DNA from: an uncultured Pseudomonadota bacterium
Lineage (GTDB): Bacteria; Myxococcota_A; UBA796; GCA-2862545
Assembly (NCBI GenBank): GCA_903861005.1
Contig: CAIOSP010000124.1
Span: 1-64,000, forward strand
Direction of reading: 5' to 3'
Length of the DNA stretch: 64,000 nucleotides
The notes under the pieces were generated by a model. It ran no database searches and was not told the origin of the DNA. It worked only from the letters and a program-made list of their open reading frames with translations. Shown in pieces: positions 32,279 to 47,773 of the stretch (position 1 is the stretch's first letter; the number at the start of each line of letters is the position of its first letter). The position numbers were made by a program, and so were the translations under genes.

Positions 32279-33670
32279 TCACGCCCCGCGAAGCGCCTGG
32301 ATCTGCGCGCGCACGCTCTCGGGCCCTGCGCCGCCCGCGGTCCGCAGACCCGCCAGCAGCTTGGCCGGGGTCATGCCAGCCAGCTCAGCCGAGATGCCCT
32401 CGCCGCCGTCGACCGGGTGCTCACCCAGCGCGGCCGCGAAGCCCGCCGCCAGGCCGCCGGTGTCCTGGCCTAGTCGAACCGCGCGGCCGACCAGGTGGTG
32501 CGCCTCACGGAACGGCAGGCCCGCGAGCACAAGGCGATCCGCGAGCCAGAGCGCCGCGAGCTCGGAGCCGCACGCGGCCTCCATGCGCGCCGCGTCCCAG
32601 GACATGGCGTCCACATGCAGGGCCGCCAGGCTCACCGCGTCGCGCGTGTTGTCGTACGAGCGGAACAGCAGCGTCTTGTCAGGCTGAAGGTCCTTGCTGT
32701 ACCCGCTGACAAGCCCGCTGGCGGCCGAGGCGAGCGCGGCGAAGTCGCCCGCCGGGAGCTTGCCGAGCACGCGAAGCAGCTCTGCCCCGTCCGGGTTGCG
32801 CTTCTGCGGCAGCAGGCTGGAGCCGGTGGTCAGCCGGTCCGGCAGCTTGAGCCACGCGAAGGCCGGAGACGCGAACAGCACCAGCTCCTCGCCCAGGCGG
32901 GACAGGCCGACGCCCGTCGTGGCGAGCACGCCGATCGCGTCGATCACGTCCGTGCGGCTGCCGGTGGTCTGGGTGGCGTTGAGCGTGGGCCGCGTGAAGC
33001 CGAGCGCCGTCGCCGTGTGCTGCCGATCGATCGGCAGGTAGGTCCCTGCCGACGCGCCGCTGCCGAGCGGGCTCTCGTCCAGGCGGGCGAGCAGGTCGCC
33101 CACACGGCGACGCGCGCGGGACAGCTCGGCCGCGTGCGCGCACAGCCACTGGCCGACGCTGCTGACTTGGGCCGGCTGCAGGTGCGTGAACGACGGCATG
33201 GGCGCGTCGACGCCCTGCTCCGCGCGATCCGCGAGCAGGCGGATGAGCGCGTCGAGGTCGTCACGCAGCACGGTGAACGCGTCGCGCATCCACATCGTGG
33301 TGTCCAAGATGACCTGATCGTTGCGGCTGCGGCCGGTGTGCAGCTTGCGCGCGGGCGCGCCAATGCGCTCGCCCAGGCGGCGCTCCACCGCCATGTGGAT
33401 GTCTTCGTCGGACGGGAGGAACTCGAACGCGCCGGTCCGCAGCTCCTCGTGGATCGCGTCCAGCCCGTGGACGATCGCTTTGGCCTCGTCCGCGGAGATC
33501 AGGCCCACGCGCGCGAGCATCGTCGCGTGGGCCTTGGAGCCGCGCACGTCCTGATCCCACAGGCGCCGATCCACGTCGACGCTGCGGTTGATGCGCTCGA
33601 GCAGCGCGTCGGTGGCCTCGGTGAACCGCCCGCCGAGGCTGCGCGCCGGCGTGCGATCCTCGGCGCTCAC
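32279..33670 (-). CDS. argH: Argininosuccinate lyase
   Basis: 463 aa, the usual family length. It cleaves argininosuccinate to arginine and fumarate, the last step of arginine synthesis. The fumarase/aspartase signature GSSLLPQKRNPD is present, along with the LHTGRSRNDQV and SFTHLQPAQ motifs of the active site. The start is GTG and overlaps the argB stop as GTGA, the 3'-most link of the overlapping arg operon. Nothing is anomalous. Confidence 0.97.
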   Translation of the reverse strand: MSAEDRTPARSLGGRFTEATDALLERINRSVDVDRRLWDQDVRGSKAHATMLARVGLISADEAKAIVHGLDAIHEELRTGAFEFLPSDEDIHMAVERRLGERIGAPARKLHTGRSRNDQVILDTTMWMRDAFTVLRDDLDALIRLLADRAEQGVDAPMPSFTHLQPAQVSSVGQWLCAHAAELSRARRRVGDLLARLDESPLGSGASAGTYLPIDRQHTATALGFTRPTLNATQTTGSRTDVIDAIGVLATTGVGLSRLGEELVLFASPAFAWLKLPDRLTTGSSLLPQKRNPDGAELLRVLGKLPAGDFAALASAASGLVSGYSKDLQPDKTLLFRSYDNTRDAVSLAALHVDAMSWDAARMEAACGSELAALWLADRLVLAGLPFREAHHLVGRAVRLGQDTGGLAAGFAAALGEHPVDGGEGISAELAGMTPAKLLAGLRTAGGAGPESVRAQIQALRGA

Positions 33671-34551
33671 CGCAGGCCCGCGTCGTCAGGGACGACCAGG
33701 GTGCCGCAGCCGTTGTCGCTGAAGATCTCGCGCAGCAGCGTCGCCGGCTCACGGCCCGAGATGATGTGCACGCGCTCGACGCCGCGGTCGATCGCCTTGA
33801 GGGCCTCTTCGACCTTGGCGCGCATGCCGCCCGCGATCACGCCCTCGTCGATCAACTCACGCACCGCCGACACTGGCAGCTGCGAGATGGGGCCCGCCGC
33901 GTCCAGCCCGCGCATGACGCCGGCGATGCTGGTGAGCAGCACCAGCTTGGACGCGCCCAGATCGGACGCCACGCGGCTGGCGACCGCGTCGCCGTTCACG
34001 TTGACCAGGTGGCCGTCGTCCAGCGTGCCCAAGCTCGGGAGCACGGGCACGGACCAGCCGTTGGGGCCCTTGGTGAACTTGGAGGCGTCCACGCCGACCA
34101 CGTCACCAACCCATCCCCAGTCGACGGTCTCGCCGTCCTCGACCGTGGGCGGGCGACGGACGCAGTGCACCGCGCTGGTGACGCCATCCTCAAAGCCGAT
34201 CGCCGGCACGCCGTCGCGGCGCAGGCGCTCGACGATCGCGCGGTTGAGATCGCCACCCACCACCGAAACCAGCACGTCGAGCGTGGCGTCGTCGGTCACG
34301 CGGCGGCCGCGGAACTTGCGAGGCACCAGGCCGCGCTGCTTGCACTCGGCGTCCACCTGCTTGCCGCCGCCGTGCACGATCAGCGGACGAAGCCCGCAGC
34401 GCACGAGGATGACGATCTGTGGGAGGATGCGCTCGAGCACGGGGCCGCCGTCGAGCAGCTCGCCGCCGAGCTTGACGACGACCAGCCGATCGCGGAACGC
34501 TTCAATGTACTGGGCCGCCTCGGCGACGTCTGGACCACGATCCGGCTTCAT
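33667..34551 (-). CDS. argB: N-acetylglutamate kinase
   Basis: 294 aa. It phosphorylates N-acetylglutamate. The amino-acid-kinase fold shows VVVKLGGELL (Lys27), VIVHGGGKQVD and the C-terminal SDNGCGTLVVP characteristic of ArgB. The ATG overlaps the end of argF' as ATGA, and its stop overlaps argH as GTGA. It may be arginine-feedback controlled, but the N-terminal helix that confers this in some homologues cannot be judged by eye. Confidence 0.95.
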   Translation of the reverse strand: MKPDRGPDVAEAAQYIEAFRDRLVVVKLGGELLDGGPVLERILPQIVILVRCGLRPLIVHGGGKQVDAECKQRGLVPRKFRGRRVTDDATLDVLVSVVGGDLNRAIVERLRRDGVPAIGFEDGVTSAVHCVRRPPTVEDGETVDWGWVGDVVGVDASKFTKGPNGWSVPVLPSLGTLDDGHLVNVNGDAVASRVASDLGASKLVLLTSIAGVMRGLDAAGPISQLPVSAVRELIDEGVIAGGMRAKVEEALKAIDRGVERVHIISGREPATLLREIFSDNGCGTLVVPDDAGLR

Positions 34552-35555
34552 GGAATGACTCCCTGGCGACGCGCGAGGTGTTCGACCAGCGCGGCCTGTG
34601 CCCACATCCGATTTCCTGCCTGCTGCACGACAAGGCTGCGAGGCCCGTCGAGCACTTCTCCCGCGATGACGACGTTGCGGCGGACCGGCAGGCAGTGCAT
34701 CACGCGACCGTGATCCGTGCCCGACATCGCCGACTCGTCCATCTGCCAGGTGCGAAGCTCCGGGTCCGTCGGACCAGAGCGATCCAAGCGACCCCACGAC
34801 TTCACGTAGACCACGCGACGGCCGCGCAGGCCGCCCAAGCGATCATGCGTGACCGTGACCTTGCCGCCGCGCGCCGACGCCTCGGAGCGCGCTGAGTCCA
34901 GCACCTCACGATCCAGATCGAACCCGTGCGGGTGAACCACCGACACGTCGCAGCCGGCGAGCGCCGCCTGCATCAAGAAGGTCTGGGGCACGGCCGTGGG
35001 CAGCGCCTTGGGGTGGTAGGCCCAGGACAGCGCGACCGGCAGGCCGCGCAGGTCCGGACCGAAGGTCTCATGGAGCGTCATCACGTCCGCCAGCCCCTGA
35101 CAGGGGTGGTGCGTGGTGCCCTCCAGGCTGATGATCGGCACGCCCGCGTAGTGCGCGATCTTGCGCAGCACCGGCTCGGTGCGCTCCACGTCCCACGGCG
35201 CCGTGCCGCGGAAGCTGCGCACGCCGAGGATGTGGAAGAACTGGCCGAGCACCCGCGCCGCCTCGGCGATGTTCTCGACCTTGTCGCCGTCCATGACTGC
35301 GTCGGGGTCAAGCTCGAGCGCCCAGGTGTCGCTGGTGGCGTTCATGGTCTGGCAGGAGCCGCCGACGATGCGGACCGCCTGCTCGAACGACGCGCGCGTC
35401 CGAAGCGACGGGTTGAAGTACAGCGCGCCCACCCGCAGCCGGTTGGGCACGGGGTTGGGGTCGGACGCCTTGAGCACGCCCGCGCGCGACAGGATGATGG
35501 CGCGGTCCGCGTCCGTCAGGTCGGTCGGCGACACCACATGAAGCAGATCAGACAC
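34548..35555 (-). CDS. argF': N-acetylornithine (or N-succinylornithine) carbamoyltransferase
   Basis: 335 aa. Carbamoyl-phosphate site FNPSLRTRASFEQA (47-60), HPCQ (150-153) and HCLPVRRNV (287-295). The variants point to the acetylornithine transcarbamylase branch described in Xanthomonas rather than canonical OTC: FNPSLRTR instead of the usual STRTR context, AYHPKALPTAVP, VVYVKSWG, and HCLPVRRN instead of HCLPA. It would therefore act on the N-acylated intermediate made by ArgB/C/D, giving N-acetylcitrulline. The GTG start follows a perfect 12-base Shine-Dalgarno and overlaps the argD stop by 8 bases. Acetyl versus succinyl specificity is not decidable here. Confidence 0.85.
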   Translation of the reverse strand: MSDLLHVVSPTDLTDADRAIILSRAGVLKASDPNPVPNRLRVGALYFNPSLRTRASFEQAVRIVGGSCQTMNATSDTWALELDPDAVMDGDKVENIAEAARVLGQFFHILGVRSFRGTAPWDVERTEPVLRKIAHYAGVPIISLEGTTHHPCQGLADVMTLHETFGPDLRGLPVALSWAYHPKALPTAVPQTFLMQAALAGCDVSVVHPHGFDLDREVLDSARSEASARGGKVTVTHDRLGGLRGRRVVYVKSWGRLDRSGPTDPELRTWQMDESAMSGTDHGRVMHCLPVRRNVVIAGEVLDGPRSLVVQQAGNRMWAQAALVEHLARRQGVIP

Positions 35556-36678
35556 CGATCACCTCCTTGAGGGTGGTGACGAACCGGTCGACGTGCTCGT
35601 CCTGGAGGATGTAAGGCGCCAGGAGCCGCAGCGTGCGCGGGTGCGACGACGTGCCGACCATGATGTCGCGGGCCAGGAGCGCGTCGCGCACCGTGTTGGC
35701 CGACACCGGGGTCTCTACGCCGAGCAGACAGCCCTTGCCGCGCACCTCGACGCCGGGGATGCCGGCCAGACCGGCGCGGATGCGGGCCTCGATCTCCAGC
35801 ACGCGGGTCATCAGGCCGTCGCGGCGGATGATGTTCGCGACCGCCTCCACCATGGCGCAGGCCATCGGGCCGCCGCCGAACGTGGTGCCGAGCTCGCCGG
35901 AGCCGACGCGATCGCCGATCGCCTTGGTGCAGACCATGGCGCCCACGGGGAAGCCCGCGCCGAGCGACTTGGCGAGCGTGACCATGTCCGGCTTCACACC
36001 AAAGGCTTCATGCGCGTACCAGGTGCCGGTGCGACCCACGCCGCCCTGGACCTCGTCGAAGATGAAGAAGGCGCCGACCTCGCGGCAGCGGGCCTCGACG
36101 CGCTGCAGCCACGCGGCGTCCGGCACGTACAGGCCGCCCAAGCTGACGATCGCCTCGATCATCACGCCAGCGACGGTCTCGTCGATGCTCGACAGGTCCT
36201 CCTGGCCGAGCGTGAAGGTGCGGCACCAGTGCGCCGGCACGTCGAGCGGGATGCGGCCGCGGTAGCCGCCAAGCCCGGTGACCGACAGCGCGCCGAGCGT
36301 ACGGCCGTGGAAGCTGGAGTCCAGCGTGATCACCGTCTTTCGGCCGGTGAGCTTGCGCGCCAGGTGCAACGCGGACTCGTTCGCCTCGGTCCCCGAGTTC
36401 ACGAAGTGCACGTAGGCCAGATGCTCGCTGCCGCCCAGCACCGCGTTGGCCGCGCGCTCCTGCACCGCCATGTGCAGCGAGTTCGAGTAGAAGTCGAGCG
36501 TGCGGTACGCGTTGGACAGCGTCTCCGCCAGCTCAGGGTGGGCGTGACCCAGCGGGCAGACCGCGTGGGCGCCGTACAGGTCGAGGATCTGGCGACCGTC
36601 CGACGTGTACATGTACACGCCGTTCGCGCGCACCAGGTCGAGGTCCAGACGCGGGTAGACAGGCAGCAGCGCGCTCAT
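35548..36678 (-). CDS. argD: N-acetylornithine aminotransferase
   Basis: 376-aa class III PLP aminotransferase. The PLP lysine lies in LAKSLGAGFPVGAM; FVNSGTEANESALHLAR and IFDEVQGGVGRTG are cofactor motifs. Position between argC and argF' assigns it to N-acetylglutamate-semialdehyde transamination. ATG at 36678 overlaps the argC stop as ATGA; an upstream in-frame ATG at 36720 would lie within argC and is rejected. The last codons also form the Shine-Dalgarno of argF'. Confidence 0.95.
   Translation of the reverse strand: MSALLPVYPRLDLDLVRANGVYMYTSDGRQILDLYGAHAVCPLGHAHPELAETLSNAYRTLDFYSNSLHMAVQERAANAVLGGSEHLAYVHFVNSGTEANESALHLARKLTGRKTVITLDSSFHGRTLGALSVTGLGGYRGRIPLDVPAHWCRTFTLGQEDLSSIDETVAGVMIEAIVSLGGLYVPDAAWLQRVEARCREVGAFFIFDEVQGGVGRTGTWYAHEAFGVKPDMVTLAKSLGAGFPVGAMVCTKAIGDRVGSGELGTTFGGGPMACAMVEAVANIIRRDGLMTRVLEIEARIRAGLAGIPGVEVRGKGCLLGVETPVSANTVRDALLARDIMVGTSSHPRTLRLLAPYILQDEHVDRFVTTLKEVIGV
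35557..35568 (-). promoter_or_regulatory. Perfect 12-base Shine-Dalgarno for argF'
   Basis: On the minus strand AAGGAGGTGATC, fully complementary to the standard 3' end of 16S rRNA, ends two bases before the argF' GTG start. The AAGGAGG core is spaced six bases from the GTG. It lies within the last codons of argD. This settles the argF' start and implies strong re-initiation or independent loading at this cistron. Confidence 0.85.
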
Positions 36679-37700
36679 GGCCAAGCCCCCACGAGCGGAA
36701 GACCGACGGTCTCGTCCCACCCGTACCAGAGGTTGAGGTTCTGCACGGCCTGACCGGACCCGCCCTTGAGCAGGTTGTCGATCGCGGTCGTGATCACGAC
36801 GTCACTGCCCACCTTCTGCACGCCGATCAGCGTGCGGACGGACAGCAGCGTGGCGCCCATGGCGGCTGCGCCCTCGATCACGTCGACGGTGGGCTTGCCC
36901 TCGTAGGCCGCGCGGTAGAGTGCCTGCGCGTCACCGTCCAGCTCGCTCGCCTTGAGGACGAGCGTGAGGTGGATGCCGCGGGGTGCGGGCAGGCTGTGCG
37001 GCACAAAACGAACGCCGGGGACCGCGCCACGCTGGCCCAGAAGCTGGAGCAGCTCGCCCATGTGCTGGTGCTTGAGCGGCTTGTAGGCGACGAAGTTGTT
37101 CACCCGCAGCGTGTGCTGGGTGCCGTCCTGCGGCGCGATGCCGCTGCCCGACGAGCCCGTCACGCCAAAGATCGTGACGTCCACGCCCGACGCGAGGTGC
37201 GGCTGGAGCGGCGCCAGCGTCAGCGCGAGCGCGGTCGCAAAGCAGCCCGGGTTGGCGATCACGCGCGCGGTCGCGGGTGCGCCACCCGTGAGCTCGGGCA
37301 GGCCGTAGAAGGCCTCCGCCGACAGCTCAGGCGCCGCGGGGGGCTTGCCGTACCAGCGGGTGTGCTCGGCCGGGTCGACGATGCGGAAGTCGCTGCCGAG
37401 ATCGATCACACGCACGCCGCGCGCGACCAGCTCACGGCCCGCCACCGCGGACTCGCCGTGCGGCAGCGCCAGAAACACCACGTCGCAGCGCTGCGAGAGC
37501 ACGTCCGCGTCAAACGCCTCAAGCAAGCCGTCGCCCGGGCCACGAAGGGCAGGACGAAGCTCGCTCAAGCGCCGACCGGCGCTCTTGCCCGCGACGAGCG
37601 CGGTGAGCTGGACGAACGGATGCGACGCGAGGAGCCTGACCAGCTCGCCGCCCAAGAAGCCGTTCGCTCCGACAATGCCGGCGCGGACGGTCGTGGTCAT
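36675..37700 (-). CDS. argC: N-acetyl-gamma-glutamyl-phosphate reductase
   Basis: 341 aa. It makes an NADPH-dependent reduction of acetylglutamyl phosphate to the semialdehyde. N-terminal Rossmann motif GIVGANGFLGGELVRLL; active-site Cys in ANPGCFATA; GVTGSSGSG loop. ATG overlaps the upstream NTPase stop as ATGA, and its own stop overlaps argD, so translation is coupled throughout. Confidence 0.96.
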   Translation of the reverse strand: MTTTVRAGIVGANGFLGGELVRLLASHPFVQLTALVAGKSAGRRLSELRPALRGPGDGLLEAFDADVLSQRCDVVFLALPHGESAVAGRELVARGVRVIDLGSDFRIVDPAEHTRWYGKPPAAPELSAEAFYGLPELTGGAPATARVIANPGCFATALALTLAPLQPHLASGVDVTIFGVTGSSGSGIAPQDGTQHTLRVNNFVAYKPLKHQHMGELLQLLGQRGAVPGVRFVPHSLPAPRGIHLTLVLKASELDGDAQALYRAAYEGKPTVDVIEGAAAMGATLLSVRTLIGVQKVGSDVVITTAIDNLLKGGSGQAVQNLNLWYGWDETVGLPLVGAWP

Positions 37701-38746
37701 CCCTCTTCCTCGGGGGCGAGACCAGCGGCCGCCAGCTGGCAGACCTTGTCGGCTTCGAGGAAGATGTTGGCGGCGGGCAGGCCCTGCTGATTCAGGCGGC
37801 GGGTACCGGTGACGTTGTCGGTGGCCGGACCGGTCACGACGCGCACGGGGATGCCCCAGGCCTGCAGCTGACGGGCGGCGGCGACCGCGCCGATGGTGTC
37901 GTTGGCGGCCACGACGGCGCCCGTGATGTGCTTGCTGAAGCGCGGGTCGGCGAACACGTCGTCCACGCCGTAGTCGCCCATCAGGCCGTCACCCATCTCG
38001 AGCACGATCACGTCCGGCGCTTCCTGCGCCAGGTGCGCGAGCATGGTCTGGGCGAGGTCGGGGATGTCGGTGTGGTACGACGTCGACGGCAGGCCGCAGT
38101 CCAGGAAGGACAGGGTCTTGTTGGCGCCGTTGTCCACGAACACCTGAAGGTCCTTCACGGCGGCGACGCCGGTGACCTTGCCCGCGTGCACGATCAGGCC
38201 GCGGCTGCGTAGCCAGCGCGTGATGACCGCGGCGGCCGTGGTCTTGCCGGCGTGCATGCACGTGCCCGCGATGACGAGCACCGGCGGCATCTTGTCCGGC
38301 ACGGGCAGGGCCGGATCGATCGCGAAGTCCTTGAGGCGCAGCGGCTTGCCCTGGCGGTAGGGCGTGCCCAGCACCTGAAGCTCGATCGGCGCGCCGAGGC
38401 CCGCGTGATCGCCGTCGGAGACGCCGATGACACCGCCCATGTTGAGCAGGTGCAGCACGTCGCCGGCCTTGACCTGGGCCGGGACGCGGCCGCAGAAGCC
38501 GCGCAGCGCCGCGCGGCTGCCGAGCGCGCCGACGATCAGATCGCCGGGCACCAGGCGCGCCTGACGGCCCGTGGTGAGCTCGAGGTGGCCGTACTCACGA
38601 CGCGCGGTCAACACCTTGCACGCGATCGCGGCGCCTTCCTCTGCGAGGGGCGTCTGATGCACGGTGATGTAGGGGCCGAGGTCGAACGGGAGGCAGACGC
38701 TTGCGACCTTGTGGGGCCGGAGGCGGAGGTCGTATTGTTCGGTCAC
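37697..38746 (-). CDS. Uncharacterised P-loop NTPase embedded in the arginine operon
   Basis: 349 aa. Residues 1-150 form a beta-rich domain with a LVPGDLIVGALGSRAALRG-type block. Residues about 155-349 are a P-loop domain: Walker A GTCMHAGKTT (161-170), then VHAGKVTGVAAVKD, and a Walker-B-like VIVLEMGDG (247-255). The P-loop layout recalls dethiobiotin-synthetase/CobQ-like enzymes and the DUF1611 (DgcN) N-acetyltransferase family, but I cannot assign it. The GTG start overlaps the argG stop as GTGA and its stop overlaps argC as ATGA, so it is an integral operon member. A role in making or activating an arginine intermediate is plausible. Confidence 0.8.
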   Translation of the reverse strand: MTEQYDLRLRPHKVASVCLPFDLGPYITVHQTPLAEEGAAIACKVLTARREYGHLELTTGRQARLVPGDLIVGALGSRAALRGFCGRVPAQVKAGDVLHLLNMGGVIGVSDGDHAGLGAPIELQVLGTPYRQGKPLRLKDFAIDPALPVPDKMPPVLVIAGTCMHAGKTTAAAVITRWLRSRGLIVHAGKVTGVAAVKDLQVFVDNGANKTLSFLDCGLPSTSYHTDIPDLAQTMLAHLAQEAPDVIVLEMGDGLMGDYGVDDVFADPRFSKHITGAVVAANDTIGAVAAARQLQAWGIPVRVVTGPATDNVTGTRRLNQQGLPAANIFLEADKVCQLAAAGLAPEEEG

Positions 38747-39918
38747 CGGCGGAGACCGATGGCGAGGATCTTGGAGAAGCCGTCCGTGTCGCGGCCATCC
38801 CAACCCGCGCCCAGCTCGCCGTAGCGAGCGCGGCCCTTCATGCGGGACTGCGGCGCGTCGATGGTGGAGAGCTCCACCGTGCCCTTGCCCAGCGTCAGGC
38901 CGACCTCGCCGTTCACCACCTGCTGCTCGGACGCGAAGTACGCCTCGATGTCCGCCATCACGGAGTCCAGCCAGAAGCCCTCATGGAGGAGCTGGCCGTA
39001 CGTGGGCTTGAGGTGGTCGCGCAGCAGGATCTGCTGCTTGGACAGCGTGAGCTTGCACAGCTCAAGGTGCGCGCGGTGGATGAGCGCCGCGGCGGGAGCC
39101 TCGAACAGGATGCGGCCCTTGATGCCGAGGACCGTGTCGCCGGTGTGGACATCACGGCCGAGGCCGTGCGCCGCGCCGCGCTCGTTGAGCAGCTCGATCA
39201 GGGCGGGCATGCCCATCTCGACGCCGTCGACGCTGACCGGACGGCCGGCCTGAAAGCCGATCTTGAGGATCTCCTCAGGCAGGGTGACGTCGGCCGCGGC
39301 GAGCACCTTGAGGCGCAGGTCGGTGGGGACGGGCTTGGACGGGTCGTGCAGCGGACCGCCGCCCATCGTGGTGCCCCACATGGACGTGTTGATGCTGTAC
39401 GTGGTGGTCTTGGCCTCCGTCTGGATGCCGACCTTGCGGAGCATCTCCGCCGACTCCTCGCGGGAGGGGCCGAGGTCGCGGATGGGGGCCTCGATCTTGA
39501 TGCCGGGGTTGAGCAGCGTGCGCAGGGTCACGTCGAAGCGGACCTGGTCGTTGCCGGCGGCGGTGCAGCCATGGCCGACCGCGTCAAAGCCACCCTCGTT
39601 CGCCAGGCGCGCGAGGTGAGCCGCCTGCAGGCCGCGCTCGGAGCCGACGCACAGCGGGTAGTTCTCACCCTTGAGGAAGCCAGTGCGGAGCAGCGGCGTC
39701 AGGATGCGGTCGCAGAGCTCGTCGCGGAGGTCGACCAGGGTGTGCGACTCGGCGCCGCACTCCTTGGACCGATCCGCAATCTTGGCCCGCTCGGCGTCAT
39801 CGAGACCGCCGCAGTCGAAGGTGACCGTGGAGACCACGTACCTTTCGCCAAGGTTGACCACGCAGAAGCTCGTGTCGAGCCCACCTGAGAACGAGAGCAA
39901 CAGCCGCGGCTTGGACAT
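38743..39918 (-). CDS. argG: Argininosuccinate synthase
   Basis: 391 aa. It joins citrulline and aspartate using ATP. The N-terminal PP-loop is SFSGGLDTS, and NTSMWGTTMG and VGHGCTAAGNDQVRF are family motifs. It is first in the operon, with GGAGG eight bases before its ATG. In a pathway with acetylornithine carbamoyltransferase, citrulline must first be freed by a deacetylase that is not present in this window. Confidence 0.95.
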   Translation of the reverse strand: MSKPRLLLSFSGGLDTSFCVVNLGERYVVSTVTFDCGGLDDAERAKIADRSKECGAESHTLVDLRDELCDRILTPLLRTGFLKGENYPLCVGSERGLQAAHLARLANEGGFDAVGHGCTAAGNDQVRFDVTLRTLLNPGIKIEAPIRDLGPSREESAEMLRKVGIQTEAKTTTYSINTSMWGTTMGGGPLHDPSKPVPTDLRLKVLAAADVTLPEEILKIGFQAGRPVSVDGVEMGMPALIELLNERGAAHGLGRDVHTGDTVLGIKGRILFEAPAAALIHRAHLELCKLTLSKQQILLRDHLKPTYGQLLHEGFWLDSVMADIEAYFASEQQVVNGEVGLTLGKGTVELSTIDAPQSRMKGRARYGELGAGWDGRDTDGFSKILAIGLRR

Positions 39919-43194: not shown

Positions 43195-43719
43195 ATGTCG
43201 GTCCTGCTCGCCCTCCTGCTGTCCGCCCACGCGGGCGAGGCCCCCGCCCCGTCCGAGGTCGTGTCGATGACCACGGTCGACATCGACGTCGTCACGTTCG
43301 ACCTGCCCACCTGCGACAAGGTGCGCGCGGAGTACCGCGACGCCCGCCCCGGTGAGCCCAAGGCACCCAAGATCAAGGTCGTGCTGCGCAACCGCAGCGG
43401 CCAGATGTGCCTGTACAAGGGCCTCGCGTTCGCGGGCACGCTGGCGGGCACCTACCAGTCGACGATCACCACCCCAGACGGCTCGGGCTTCTTCATCCCG
43501 CCGGACGGCGAGGTCGAGCTGCGGCTGCACCTCACGCCGTCGGACACGCCCCGCGACGTGATCCGCATGCAGATCCCGCCGGACAGCGGCTTGGTCGTGC
43601 TGGAAGGCTTCGCTGCGGCCAATGCGCCGGGCGCGACGCCCCCGCCCGCGACGCCGCCTGTGGTGGAAGAACCCGCGCGCGGCCACGGCAAGCCGCCCAA
43701 GGTCAAGCCCTCAAAGTAG
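43195..43719 (+). CDS. Secreted hypothetical protein
   Basis: 174 aa. The first 14 residues form a short signal peptide ending near AHAGEA. The mature part is beta-rich with a Pro-rich, basic C-terminal tail. GGAG lies five bases before the ATG. Its stop overlaps the stop of the convergent phosphodiesterase gene by nine bases. No function can be assigned. Confidence 0.7.
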   Translation: MSVLLALLLSAHAGEAPAPSEVVSMTTVDIDVVTFDLPTCDKVRAEYRDARPGEPKAPKIKVVLRNRSGQMCLYKGLAFAGTLAGTYQSTITTPDGSGFFIPPDGEVELRLHLTPSDTPRDVIRMQIPPDSGLVVLEGFAAANAPGATPPPATPPVVEEPARGHGKPPKVKPSK

Positions 43720-44577
43720 CCAGGACTTCCCGTCCAGGTCCTCGTACGGCACGCCGAGCCAGTCCAGCGCGGTGGGCGCCACGTCCATGTGGTTCGCGTC
43801 CGACGGCGCGTCGCCGCCCGCGGGCAGCCCGCCGCCGACCACGCCCACCGGGATGGTCTGCGTGTCCACGCTCGGCTCCTCGTGGCCGGTCCCCAGCCCG
43901 CCGTGGTCGGTGACCAGCGCGACGAGCCAGTCGGCGTTCTCCGCGTCGGCGGTCACCGCGTCGATCGCCCCCGCGACGTCGGCGTCCACGCCCTCGATCG
44001 CCGCGATGTACTCCGGGTTGTCGGCGGAGAAGCCGCTGCTGTGGCCCGCGTGGTCGACTGAGTCGAAGTGCGAGAACACCAGGTCGAACTCGCCGGACTC
44101 GATGCGCGTGACGAGCGCGGCGCCCACGGCCTCGTCGGTGCCCTGATCCATGGCGTCGGTCGCGTCAGGCCCCACCAGCGGCAGGATGCCGACCCAGTCG
44201 AACACCGCGGCGGTGCTTCGCCCGGCGGCGCGGACGCGGCTGAGGAAGCTGGGCCAGTCGGGGCTGATGCTGCCGAGGTCGTCGTTGCTCTCGACGCCGT
44301 GGTCTTCGACCTCCACGCCGGTGAGGACGGACGCCCAGCCGGGGCCGCTCAACGTCACGCCCTGCGCGTGCGTGTGCGCGTCGAGCGCGAGCACGCCGCG
44401 CTCGAACAGCGCGTCCAGGTTGGGGGTGTTGGCCGCGGCAAGCGCGTCAGGACGCAGGCCGTCGACGCCGATCACGAACACCTTGTGCGGCAGCCCGCCG
44501 GACGAGTCCGTGTCGTCCTTCGTCGGGTCGCCGCCTGCGCAGGCGGCCAGAAAGGCCAGGGGCAGCACGCGCTTCAT
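43711..44577 (-). CDS. Lipoprotein phosphodiesterase/nucleotide pyrophosphatase-like enzyme
   Basis: 288 aa of the alkaline-phosphatase superfamily. The signal ends at LAACAGG (lipobox) with a short Asp/Thr linker. Metal and catalytic motifs are VIGVDGLRPD (Asp39), SGPGWASVLTG with Ser77 as the probable nucleophile, HFDSVDHAGHSSG and TDHGG. The protein is compact compared with eukaryotic NPPs. The ATG overlaps the radical SAM stop as ATGA, so the two are translationally coupled. It could hydrolyse phosphodiesters, phosphonates or sugar phosphates outside the cell. Confidence 0.85.
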   Translation of the reverse strand: MKRVLPLAFLAACAGGDPTKDDTDSSGGLPHKVFVIGVDGLRPDALAAANTPNLDALFERGVLALDAHTHAQGVTLSGPGWASVLTGVEVEDHGVESNDDLGSISPDWPSFLSRVRAAGRSTAAVFDWVGILPLVGPDATDAMDQGTDEAVGAALVTRIESGEFDLVFSHFDSVDHAGHSSGFSADNPEYIAAIEGVDADVAGAIDAVTADAENADWLVALVTDHGGLGTGHEEPSVDTQTIPVGVVGGGLPAGGDAPSDANHMDVAPTALDWLGVPYEDLDGKSWLL

Positions 44578-46268
44578 GGGGAGGCCTCCGTCGGCCCCGC
44601 CTGCGCGGCCGGGCCGTCCGATCGGTAGCCCTTCTTGGTCATCCAGCCGATGAAGCTGGCCATGATCTTGCCCACGTCCACGTTGTTCTTGGTGACGGTA
44701 GGCCGGTACGACCAGTCGAGTAGGAAGTGGTTGTCGGTGGCGTCGATCCAGTAGCGGTCCACGCCCGTGCGGTCGTCGAGCGTGGCCAGGACGAACTTGT
44801 CCTTGTGCTCGGTCTCGTGGAGGAACGAGTTGCCGCCGTAGATCGTGCCGTCCCAGTCCACCGTCACCTCGCCGTTGAGGCGCATGGCGACGGGCTTGTG
44901 CTGCATGTTGATGAACTCGATCGACTCGCCCCGCGCCCAGCGGGCGATCAGGCCCTGCCCAATCTGATGCAGGCCGCGCGCGAACGACGCGGTCTCGGCC
45001 TCGGTCCACACACGGCCCAGCATGTTGTTGATCTGGATGCGCTTGAAGCCCAGGTCCGCGATGTGGAAGAAGTTCGCGGGCATCGCGTCGACGTTGGTCG
45101 GGTGGACGACCATGATCACGTACTGCTCGATGCCGCTCGCGAGGATCGCCGAGGCGTGCGTGGCGATGGAGTTGTCGTAGCTCTTGGCCGCCTTCCAGCG
45201 GGAGGGACGGAAGCGGTTCTGGGTCCGTTCGTCGCCGTCGAGGGAGAGCTCTAAGCGGATCGGGCGCTCCTTCATCCAGCTCAGTTTCTCCTCGTCGAGC
45301 GACCAGCCGTTGCTGCTGACGACGTACGAGGGCGTCTTCCCCAAGGCGCGGGCGCGCGTCTGCGCGTAGTCGATGGCGTGCTGGAGCACCGGCCACGCCA
45401 GCAGCGCCTCGCCTCCGAAGAACTGGATCATCACGTCCGTCAGGTCCGTCGACAGCGCCAGGTCCACGCCGCGCTCGGCCACCTCGACCGTCATCACGCG
45501 GCCGTCCTGCTTGGGGATGTAGCAGTAGGAGCAGCGCAGCTCGCACTGCCAGGTGGGGATGAGCACCACCCGGCGCGTGGTGTCGTAGGTGTACTGCCGG
45601 AAGCGCTTCATCCAGCCTTCGACGTCGCCCAGCAGCGACGTCGCCAGCGCCATCGCCGGCTCCTTGCCCATCGCCCCGCCGGGCCAACCGTCGGCCAGCC
45701 GGAGCCAGGCGCGGCGCAGCGACGCGAAGATCGCGCGTCGCGGGGCGTCGTCCAGGCGACGCACGAGGAACTCACCGAGGCGGCGCGCCACCTCATCGGT
45801 GGTGCCGTCCAGCCGGGCGCTCCACACGGCCCGCAGGCGCTCCAGGCTCAGGGTGTAGTGGCGCTCGGCGTCGAGCACGCCGGCGTCCACGGCGGCGGCC
45901 ACCCACGCGTCCTTGGGTCGAACATCCCCGTGCGTCACGAACTCAAGCCGACCCGGGAAGCGCAGCGCGAGCGCCGCCACCTCACCCAGCGTGGCGATCA
46001 GCTCGTCGGGCGTGGTCAACACGTCCGCCAGCGGCGCGATCAGCGTCACGTCCACGCCGTGCGCCGCGAGGGCGTGCACCGCCGCCCGGACTGTCGTCAG
46101 GTCGTAGTCGGCGCCCGCCCGCGTGAGCGCGGCGTCGTGAAGGCCGCGGAGCGCCAGCGTGGCGCGCCGACCGGCGGTCATCCAGGACGGCGCCTGCGGG
46201 TCAGGCCGAACCCCGTCCGGTCCGTGCACAACCAGCTCGGACACCTCGAAGCGCTGCGCGTCGCCCAT
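44574..46268 (-). CDS. Radical SAM protein without auxiliary cluster cysteines
   Basis: 564 aa. The [4Fe-4S]/SAM motif is CELRCSYC (Cys242, 246, 249). These three are the only cysteines in the whole protein, so SPASM/Twitch auxiliary clusters are absent even though the C-terminal part resembles the SPASM region (VDWDGTIYGGN). Residues 1-230 form an unassigned N-terminal domain. FFGGEALLAW (GGE motif) follows the cluster. The ATG at 46268 begins the folded N-terminus; upstream in-frame sequence is low quality and antisense-like. It is coupled to the phosphodiesterase gene. It resembles peptide-modifying radical SAM enzymes, but no precursor peptide was found. Confidence 0.85.
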   Translation of the reverse strand: MGDAQRFEVSELVVHGPDGVRPDPQAPSWMTAGRRATLALRGLHDAALTRAGADYDLTTVRAAVHALAAHGVDVTLIAPLADVLTTPDELIATLGEVAALALRFPGRLEFVTHGDVRPKDAWVAAAVDAGVLDAERHYTLSLERLRAVWSARLDGTTDEVARRLGEFLVRRLDDAPRRAIFASLRRAWLRLADGWPGGAMGKEPAMALATSLLGDVEGWMKRFRQYTYDTTRRVVLIPTWQCELRCSYCYIPKQDGRVMTVEVAERGVDLALSTDLTDVMIQFFGGEALLAWPVLQHAIDYAQTRARALGKTPSYVVSSNGWSLDEEKLSWMKERPIRLELSLDGDERTQNRFRPSRWKAAKSYDNSIATHASAILASGIEQYVIMVVHPTNVDAMPANFFHIADLGFKRIQINNMLGRVWTEAETASFARGLHQIGQGLIARWARGESIEFINMQHKPVAMRLNGEVTVDWDGTIYGGNSFLHETEHKDKFVLATLDDRTGVDRYWIDATDNHFLLDWSYRPTVTKNNVDVGKIMASFIGWMTKKGYRSDGPAAQAGPTEASP

Positions 46269-46294
46269 GGGCAAAGGACTCCGGAGCCGAGATG

Positions 46295-47773
46295 CTAGCA
46301 CGGGAGCGGCCAAGCCACCCCCGCCGAGGCGTCGAGCCACGCGCCCTCCTCCGCGGTCACGCCGTACGCGTCGCGCACCCGCCGCTCGGCGGTGGCCCGA
46401 TCCACGCCCTCCAATGGCCCCTCCGGGGGCGCCGGGATGGGCATGGACGCCAGGTAGCTCCCCAAGAAGTGCAGGTAGCCGCCTCCCTTGCGGGTGCCCG
46501 CGAACAGCTGCGCGTACAGCACGTGGAACACGTCGCTCTGCAGCACCCACACGAGCCACGCGAGCGTGCGCTCACCCTCGTCCAGGCCGTCGCGCGAGCG
46601 CACCAGCAGGAAGGTGTCCTTGAGCACCAGGCCCGATCGGTCGAGCGCGGCGCGGCAGCGTCGGGCGTTCTGCGCGACCACCACCTTGGGGGCGTCGAAC
46701 AAGGCGATCGCCGGGAACGCGTTGCCCACCTCGCGGGCGCGCGCCTCGTCGTAGTCGACCCACGCGCCCGCCCAGCGGATCTCGCCGTCGTCGAGCTCCC
46801 GGTTCCCGGCGAAGCTGCCGCCGCCCAGGAAGCGCCGCGCGTGCGGAGAGTCAGGGCGGTCGGCCGACACAAAGCGCTCCCGCAGGCCCGCGCGGTGAAA
46901 GGACACCGTCCAGCGGATCTCGAAGCGATCGCCCAGCGGCGCCAGGGACGGCTCGCGCAGCACCCGGCGCAGGAGCGCGCCGCCGACGCCCTGCCAGGGC
47001 ACGCCCCACCGACCGCCGAGCTTCGACGCGACGAGCGTGTGCTCCAGGCCCTCGTCCGCGCCTCGCGCGCGTAGAGTCCGCGGGCCGCCCTCCGTCCACG
47101 TCAGCACGACTGGATAGACCGCCGCCGCCGCCCCAAAGTCCCCGGCGCCGCCGCGGTCTTCCAGGCTCACCGTCCCCCGCGACAGCAGCAGCGCGCGCAG
47201 CCCCGCCGTCGCGCCGGTCACCAGCAGGCGGTTCGGCACGATGAGCGACACCTGCCCGCCGGGCGACACCAGCCGCGACGCGAGCTCCACGAAGATCGCG
47301 TACAGATCGAACGCGCCCGTCGCCGCCTCCCAGCCGTCCTTGCGGAGCCGTCTCTTGAGCGCGTCCGACATGCGCTTGGACTCCAGGTACGGCGGGTTGC
47401 CCACCACGCGGTCGAAGCGGGCGTCGGTCGGATCCAGCGCGTCCCGGTGCACCAGCGAGAGCGTGGCGCCCGCGGCCCTCGCGAGCGGCTCCAGGCGCGC
47501 CGACGCCACGGCGAGCGCGTCCCCGTCGATGTCCCAGCCCTCGACGTGCAGGCCTGGGACCCGGTCGTCGATCGCGCGCTGGAGCACGGCCTCAAGGAAC
47601 GCGCCGTCGCCGCAGGACGGGTCTAGCCAGCGGCTCGCCATGTCGAGCCCGTCGACCACGTGCCGCGCCAGCGCGTCGGGCGTGTACACGCGCCCGTTGA
47701 GCTTGGGCACGGACGTGCGACGACCCACCTGGTTGTCGCGGCCCGTGGCGTACGGTGTCGGCGCGTCGTGCAT
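46295..47773 (-). CDS. Orphan N6-adenine DNA methyltransferase
   Basis: 492 aa. SAM motif I is DPSCGDGAF (51-59) and the catalytic motif IV is NPPY (126-129), typical of adenine-N6 methyltransferases of the Eco57I/TaqI type. The C-terminal half should recognise the target sequence. No restriction nuclease, specificity subunit or phage-defence partner is adjacent, so it may be a regulatory solitary enzyme or the methylase part of a Type IIG-like system lacking the nuclease. ATG at 47773 is supported by GGAG five bases upstream. Confidence 0.82.
   Translation of the reverse strand: MHDAPTPYATGRDNQVGRRTSVPKLNGRVYTPDALARHVVDGLDMASRWLDPSCGDGAFLEAVLQRAIDDRVPGLHVEGWDIDGDALAVASARLEPLARAAGATLSLVHRDALDPTDARFDRVVGNPPYLESKRMSDALKRRLRKDGWEAATGAFDLYAIFVELASRLVSPGGQVSLIVPNRLLVTGATAGLRALLLSRGTVSLEDRGGAGDFGAAAAVYPVVLTWTEGGPRTLRARGADEGLEHTLVASKLGGRWGVPWQGVGGALLRRVLREPSLAPLGDRFEIRWTVSFHRAGLRERFVSADRPDSPHARRFLGGGSFAGNRELDDGEIRWAGAWVDYDEARAREVGNAFPAIALFDAPKVVVAQNARRCRAALDRSGLVLKDTFLLVRSRDGLDEGERTLAWLVWVLQSDVFHVLYAQLFAGTRKGGGYLHFLGSYLASMPIPAPPEGPLEGVDRATAERRVRDAYGVTAEEGAWLDASAGVAWPLPC

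Follow-up and report, generated by a model that had tools for sequence, protein, structure and literature searches.

We predict that an uncharacterised P-loop NTPase encoded in the arginine operon of an uncultured bacterium is the first enzyme of arginine biosynthesis, making N-acyl-L-glutamate from glutamate, and from sequence comparison we put the probability of this role at roughly three in four. The NTPase gene belongs to the operon, the recognised first-step enzymes are missing from the genome, and in Bacteroidota a GNAT acyltransferase takes its place in otherwise identical operons. Searches of open-access papers on DUF1611, N-succinylglutamate synthase and missing N-acetylglutamate synthase (NAGS) turned up no reference to the family, and we regard it as a strong candidate for an N-acyl(succinyl)-glutamate synthase of a new type.

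The first arginine step seems to be missing in many uncultured phyla, so that their prototrophy is mistaken for auxotrophy or the pathway is shown with a gap. In Bacteroidota, this gap was filled by the GNAT ArgA2 in GapMind (PMC7311316) and in a gut-microbiome reconstruction (PMC9026213). If our prediction is correct, the NTPase family would close it in many further lineages and add one more fold to those that acylate glutamate, and with it a new enzyme type at a basic metabolic step. The N-succinyl arginine pathway would then extend well beyond Bacteroidota, and the common N-acetylornithine carbamoyltransferase label of the NTPase-partnered ArgF′ would need correction.

The NTPase gene is embedded in a coupled arginine operon

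Within the window (the whole 64,000-nucleotide stretch of DNA analysed here), the NTPase is encoded by an open reading frame of 349 amino acids at 37697–38746 on the minus strand, with a GTG start at 38746; the plus strand of this interval is not open in the NTPase frame. The initial annotation had the reading frame right and gave no strand for it. The operon runs argG-NTPase-argC-argD-argF′-argB-argH, all on the minus strand. Upstream, argG (argininosuccinate synthase, 38743–39918; PF00764/PF20979 and the argG NCBIfam models) overlaps the NTPase start with its stop through GTGA (CGGTGACCG), and the NTPase stop in turn overlaps the ATG of argC (N-acyl-gamma-glutamyl-phosphate reductase, 36675–37700, over the TIGR01850 cut-off) through ATGA (GAGGGATGACC). 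Another ATGA joins argC to argD (class III N-acylornithine aminotransferase, 35548–36678, placed by Pfam and NCBIfam matches and by its junction), which shares 8 nt with argF′ (carbamoyltransferase, 34548–35555; GTGTCTGA). The remaining junctions are an ATGA overlap between argF′ and argB (N-acylglutamate kinase, 33667–34551, a kinase domain only with no fused NAGS domain) and a GTGA overlap between argB and argH (argininosuccinate lyase, 32279–33670, no fused acetyltransferase).

All six junctions therefore overlap, by 4–8 nt each, which places the NTPase gene inside one coupled operon. Both overlaps that the initial annotation had cited for calling it a coupled member and not a passenger are seen in the junction sequences, and argA, argJ and argE are missing from the operon of the window, as it had stated. 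Every operon gene but the NTPase has confident Pfam and NCBIfam matches.

Known first-step enzymes are missing from NTPase-bearing genomes

The genome carrying the window (G000) is 96.7% complete, and a canonical argA or argJ encoded elsewhere in it, which the initial annotation had named, together with a structural match to a family of known unrelated function, as speaking against its proposal, was not found. Whole-genome searches return no ArgJ (PF01960), no ArgA above the TIGR01890 cut-off (the only TIGR01890 match is argB itself), no short GNAT NAGS and, by profile search, no Bacteroidota-type GNAT. A search with the NAT-domain family PF04768 gives zero matches, but as the control genomes give none either, this result carries no weight; NF005840 gives low-scoring, at most suggestive GNAT matches in many genomes.

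The same picture holds among relatives. An NTPase homologue is encoded in 21 of 38 genomes from the genus, family and order of the window, its own genome included, with the same operon order at almost all loci. All 21 have argB, and ArgJ is missing from 20; the exception, G015, is 6% contaminated and spread over 1330 contigs. ArgJ is present in five relatives that lack the NTPase, where a GNAT adjoins argJ. Both NTPase and ArgJ are missing from the 11 relatives that lack a full argB, and also from one genome that does have argB (G030, 86% complete). No argB, NTPase or ArgJ match is seen in G004, G007, G010, G016, G022, G025, G029, G031 and G034, some of them fairly complete; such genomes are probably arginine auxotrophs within the same order.

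Among 50 NTPase genomes of other groups, drawn from a wide scan of GTDB, ArgJ is missing from 49. The exception is a Woesearchaeota MAG (G064), in which argG-NTPase-argC-argD-argF′-argB-argE-argH is followed just downstream on the same contig by argJ; this contig (L095/L216, 21,496 bases) carries the only operon seen with both genes. A succinyl pathway that uses a deacylase would be expected to lack ArgJ in any case, so more weight falls on the missing GNAT ArgA2 and short NAGS. For the deacylation step, the only ArgE candidate in G000 is a generic M20 hydrolase (C36:5385–6482, E 5e-44) that scores no better than M20 matches in genomes without the NTPase, and its assignment as the N-acylcitrulline deacylase is uncertain.

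The NTPase follows the arginine genes across phyla

A scan of 84,980 GTDB species genomes yields at least 559 confirmed NTPase relatives. The best 80 of these loci include records from Planctomycetota, Acidobacteriota, Sumerlaeota, Spirochaetota, Gammaproteobacteria, Armatimonadota (Fimbriimonadaceae), Rhodothermales, Woesearchaeota and Diapherotrites. At nearly every locus examined, the NTPase lies in an arginine operon (argR-argG-NTPase-argC-argD-argF′-argB-argE-argH), and this position is kept across at least eight phyla, two of them archaeal MAG lineages (DPANN). Among the best 80 loci the NTPase co-occurs with argC in 73, argB in 63, argF′ in 62, argG in 60 and argR in 45. Nor is the NTPase a chance neighbour: of 106 loci examined, 90 have argC no more than 400 bp downstream, and of the 81 that have a same-strand argG, 75 have it no more than 400 bp upstream. 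Pairwise NTPase distances correlate with those of argC (r = 0.92), argB (0.91) and argF′ (0.89) as tightly as those of the arginine genes do among themselves, in simple correlations that ignore tree structure.

Self-contained Rhodothermales operons (L118 and L126/L129), ordered argR-argG-NTPase-argC-argD-argF′-argB-argE-argH, narrow the possible role. In these and in L131, each other arginine step is present once and the NTPase is the sole gene without a step; in L118 and L126/L129, glutamate acylation is the sole step without a gene.

A GNAT acyltransferase replaces the NTPase in Bacteroidota

We searched 99 Bacteroidota genomes for N-acylornithine carbamoyltransferase and the NTPase. A strong carbamoyltransferase match occurs in 49, 12 of them with the NTPase and 37 without it, and the 12 NTPase-bearing genomes hold exactly the 12 top carbamoyltransferase scores. 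Eleven of the 37 NTPase-free operons were read, one of them broken by a contig end, and all 10 readable operons have the order GNAT-argG-argC-argD-argF′-argB-argE(-argH). The corresponding GNAT profile (A3) matches nine of nine NTPase-free controls and one of 71 NTPase genomes (Fisher 4e-11, phylogeny ignored); as the nine controls also fed the profile, what counts is how rarely it matches the 71. The lone genome with both, Bacteroidota G117, carries its GNAT copy outside the arginine operon with no arginine neighbours.

The GNAT known as ArgA2, BT3761 or Cabys_1732 has been assigned as an N-succinyl- or N-acetylglutamate synthase (PMC7311316, PMC5317091, PMC9026213). By position and fold, rather than by direct sequence comparison, we infer that the operon GNAT is of this type. 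ArgA2 and the NTPase share their place in the pathway and their partners argG, argC, argD, argF′, argB, argE and argH. Their folds are unrelated (ArgA2 is a GNAT, PF00583), and the ArgA2 gene lies upstream of argG whereas the NTPase gene lies between argG and argC. ArgA2 itself is an N-succinylglutamate synthase candidate in Bacteroidota and an N-acetylglutamate synthase in Caldithrix. A swap of NTPase and GNAT in otherwise identical operons points to the acylation step rather than any other, and the exchange is a non-orthologous displacement by the same logic that underlies the ArgA2 assignment. The central proposal of the initial annotation, that the NTPase supplies the missing acylation step, is thus strongly supported by both the genome-wide absence of ArgA and ArgJ and the reciprocal swap with ArgA2. 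We also considered whether the NTPase corresponds to ArgA3 of PMC9026213 and rejected this, since ArgA3 is a deacetylase homologue.

Counting against the role are G117 (NTPase and GNAT), G064 and G015 (NTPase and ArgJ) and G030 (argB with neither NTPase nor ArgJ); many of the surveyed genomes are MAGs. GNATs are diverse, and an unrecognised one may acylate glutamate in NTPase carriers.

The P-loop domain retains the catalytic residues of BioD

An AlphaFold2 model of the NTPase (pLDDT 91.7, pTM 0.89) contains a beta-rich N-terminal domain (residues 5–152; 38291–38734, minus strand) and a SIMIBI-type, BioD-like P-loop domain (residues 153–349; 37700–38290, minus strand), the two-domain layout that had been read from the sequence. 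A Foldseek search with the whole model brings up nothing but generic SIMIBI GTPases, with FtsY, SRP54 and HypB as the top matches, and the N-terminal domain alone (pLDDT 93) matches no solved fold (best E 0.4). Searches of the PDB with phmmer and profiles return only P-loop-level chance matches, and the ArgA, ArgJ, short NAGS and ArgA2 domain families of Pfam and NCBIfam do not match the NTPase.

Across 107 arginine-type members, G161, G167, K168, T169, K190, G193, D199, E250, D253 and D283 are essentially invariant, with K168, K190, D199 and E250 at 100%. A profile alignment with BioD (134 columns, E 1e-4) places these four residues on BioD K16, K38, D52 and E107, which are invariant in 12 BioD sequences and which we take to be the residues that handle ATP/Mg2+ and the carbamate. 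BioD phosphorylates a carbamate. The NTPase resembles the SIMIBI synthetases of the BioD (TIGR00347), CobQ and CobB type in its P-loop domain and these catalytic residues, and differs from BioD in its extra beta domain and arginine context; G000 also encodes a separate BioD. No BioD family of NCBIfam comes within E 0.1 of the NTPase (TIGR00347 cut-off 83.3 bits), and deeper NTPase-family profiles improve neither the BioD nor the DUF1611 scores.

The initial annotation had described the domain as BioD/CobQ- or DUF1611-like. The first likeness stands on the alignment and catalytic residues above, and membership of DUF1611 (PF07755) does not. The best Pfam or NCBIfam match of the window NTPase is to the P-loop of this family, with 14.4 bits (E 0.025) against a gathering score of 25 bits, and weak P-loop matches to it occur in 16 of 19 NTPase-family members (best E 1.1e-4). 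Alignment with hhalign (E 2.4e-4) covers the P-loop region only and leaves the K190 and D199 segment unaligned. True DUF1611 proteins of the relatives have another N-terminal domain and read GTGQTAW where the NTPase reads GKVTGV. We therefore rejected membership of the DUF1611/DgcN family, and by these comparisons BioD is at least as close to the NTPase as DUF1611.

A proposed ATP-dependent route to N-acylglutamate

We infer the catalytic activity, acyl group and ATP dependence of the NTPase, and propose the following route. As a non-orthologous substitute for ArgA/ArgJ and the GNAT-type ArgA2, the NTPase would make N-acyl-L-glutamate, most likely N-succinyl-L-glutamate, from glutamate. The BioD-like P-loop domain would use MgATP to phosphorylate a carboxylate (succinate), and the alpha-amine of glutamate would then attack the resulting acyl phosphate; glutamate and/or arginine, the latter as a feedback inhibitor, may be bound by the beta domain. 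ArgB, ArgC, ArgD and ArgF′ would act on the acylated intermediates, an M20 deacylase would free citrulline, and ArgG and ArgH would finish the pathway.

Retention of all four invariant BioD residues favours ATP-dependent ligase chemistry; granted an acylating role, we consider a ligase, rather than an acyl-CoA transferase, an even bet. The alternative is an acyl-CoA-dependent glutamate N-acyltransferase comparable to DgcN, whose P-loop would bind either a regulatory nucleotide or the nucleotide moiety of CoA. We take DgcN of the DUF1611 family to be the D-glutamate N-acetyltransferase of EC 2.3.1.312. Its family (PDB 2g0t, 2obn, 7xrj) has a distantly similar P-loop, reflected in the weak matches described above, and its reported reaction is the N-acylation of glutamate. 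D-glutamate N-acetyltransferase activity is formally listed as EC 2.3.1.312 (PMC11747546), and the GNAT that the NTPase replaces is itself CoA-dependent. Conservation of the BioD-type ATP/Mg2+ residues in the NTPase family speaks against the acyl-CoA reading, as does a DUF1611 alignment that omits the very segment holding K190 and D199, where DUF1611 has GTGQTAW; we hold this reading possible and lean away from it. In its most specific form, the ligase proposal is that a protein made of a BioD-like P-loop domain and a new beta domain would link free succinate and L-glutamate by way of succinyl phosphate, CoA-free, and that arginine biosynthesis would start in this way in Acidobacteriota, Planctomycetota, Rhodothermales, Armatimonadota, the order of the window itself (probably myxococcal) and DPANN archaea. 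Taken whole, this combination is speculative and we would give it about one chance in a few.

Partner carbamoyltransferases point to a succinyl group

N-acetyl- and N-succinylornithine transcarbamylases are told apart by Glu92/Asn185/Lys302 in the former and A, S, P, V or Q at 92, P at 185 and V, I or E at 302 in the latter (Shi et al., PMC4581275). The ArgF′ of the window is V92/P185/V302, the N-succinylornithine signature. None of the readable partner ArgF′ has E92 or N185, P185 is found in 67 and V, I or E302 in about 65; Thr92, common in Acidobacteriota, is not among the published residues (A/S/P/V/Q), which makes the assignment less certain for those proteins. This signature makes succinyl, not acetyl, the probable acyl group, and we consider it the likelier assignment provided that the NTPase acylates glutamate. 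The N-acetyl group implied by the initial annotation is thus probably to be replaced by succinyl. The N-succinylornithine transcarbamylase pathway of B. fragilis shows the same gene set and succinyl-type ArgF′ residues, and differs in that its first enzyme is a GNAT and that of the window would be a P-loop NTPase.

That the NTPase instead acetylates glutamate, as an N-acetylglutamate synthase, appears unlikely. NCBIfam names the partner ArgF′ N-acetylornithine carbamoyltransferase (NF003384 in the window), and K302 is kept in two partners (L126 and L129); against this stand the lack of E92 and N185 in any readable partner and the prevalence of P185, with the Acidobacteriota Thr92 proteins again the less certain cases. 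The label is probably wrong for nearly all ArgF′ partners examined in the NTPase-bearing phyla.

Roles outside acylation are poorly accommodated

A regulatory or assembly role, in which the NTPase acts as sensor, chaperone or channelling subunit and an unrecognised enzyme performs the first step, seems improbable to us. SIMIBI NTPases are often switches, as are the top Foldseek matches FtsY, SRP54 and HypB, but the NTPase exchanges reciprocally with a catalytic GNAT, many NTPase operons already have ArgR, and the arginine operons examined contain no other recurrent uncharacterised gene. A different small step is more improbable still: carbamoyl phosphate supply would suit the carbamate phosphorylation of BioD, yet GNAT-type operons need carbamoyl phosphate equally and lack the NTPase, and N-acylcitrulline deacylation would suit the missing argE of the window, yet the NTPase and an M20 deacylase stand together in many operons, so the NTPase is not the deacylase.

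Distant paralogues and neighbouring genes

Distant NTPase paralogues lie outside arginine operons (L185:8606–9634, L186:8905–9939, L187:4295–5389 and L042:9350–10384); two are immediate neighbours of predicted ABC-exporter-like genes, and another stands next to a peptidase-like gene. Several arginine-family residues (Y52, G83, N102 and D310) are missing from these paralogues, which keep the P-loop, K190, D199 and E250. Their occurrence means that the substrate cannot be read from the fold alone, and the fold probably has other acylation or ligation roles outside arginine.

In the window, argG is directly preceded on its own strand by the gene for a membrane protein of the LPG_synthase_TM family (PF03706, 39994–41019), an arrangement also found in the same-genus genome G001. 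Further upstream on the minus strand, a radical-SAM-looking protein with a CELRCSYCYIP motif is encoded directly upstream of a phosphodiesterase/alkaline-phosphatase-like protein (44574–46559 and about 43711–44570).
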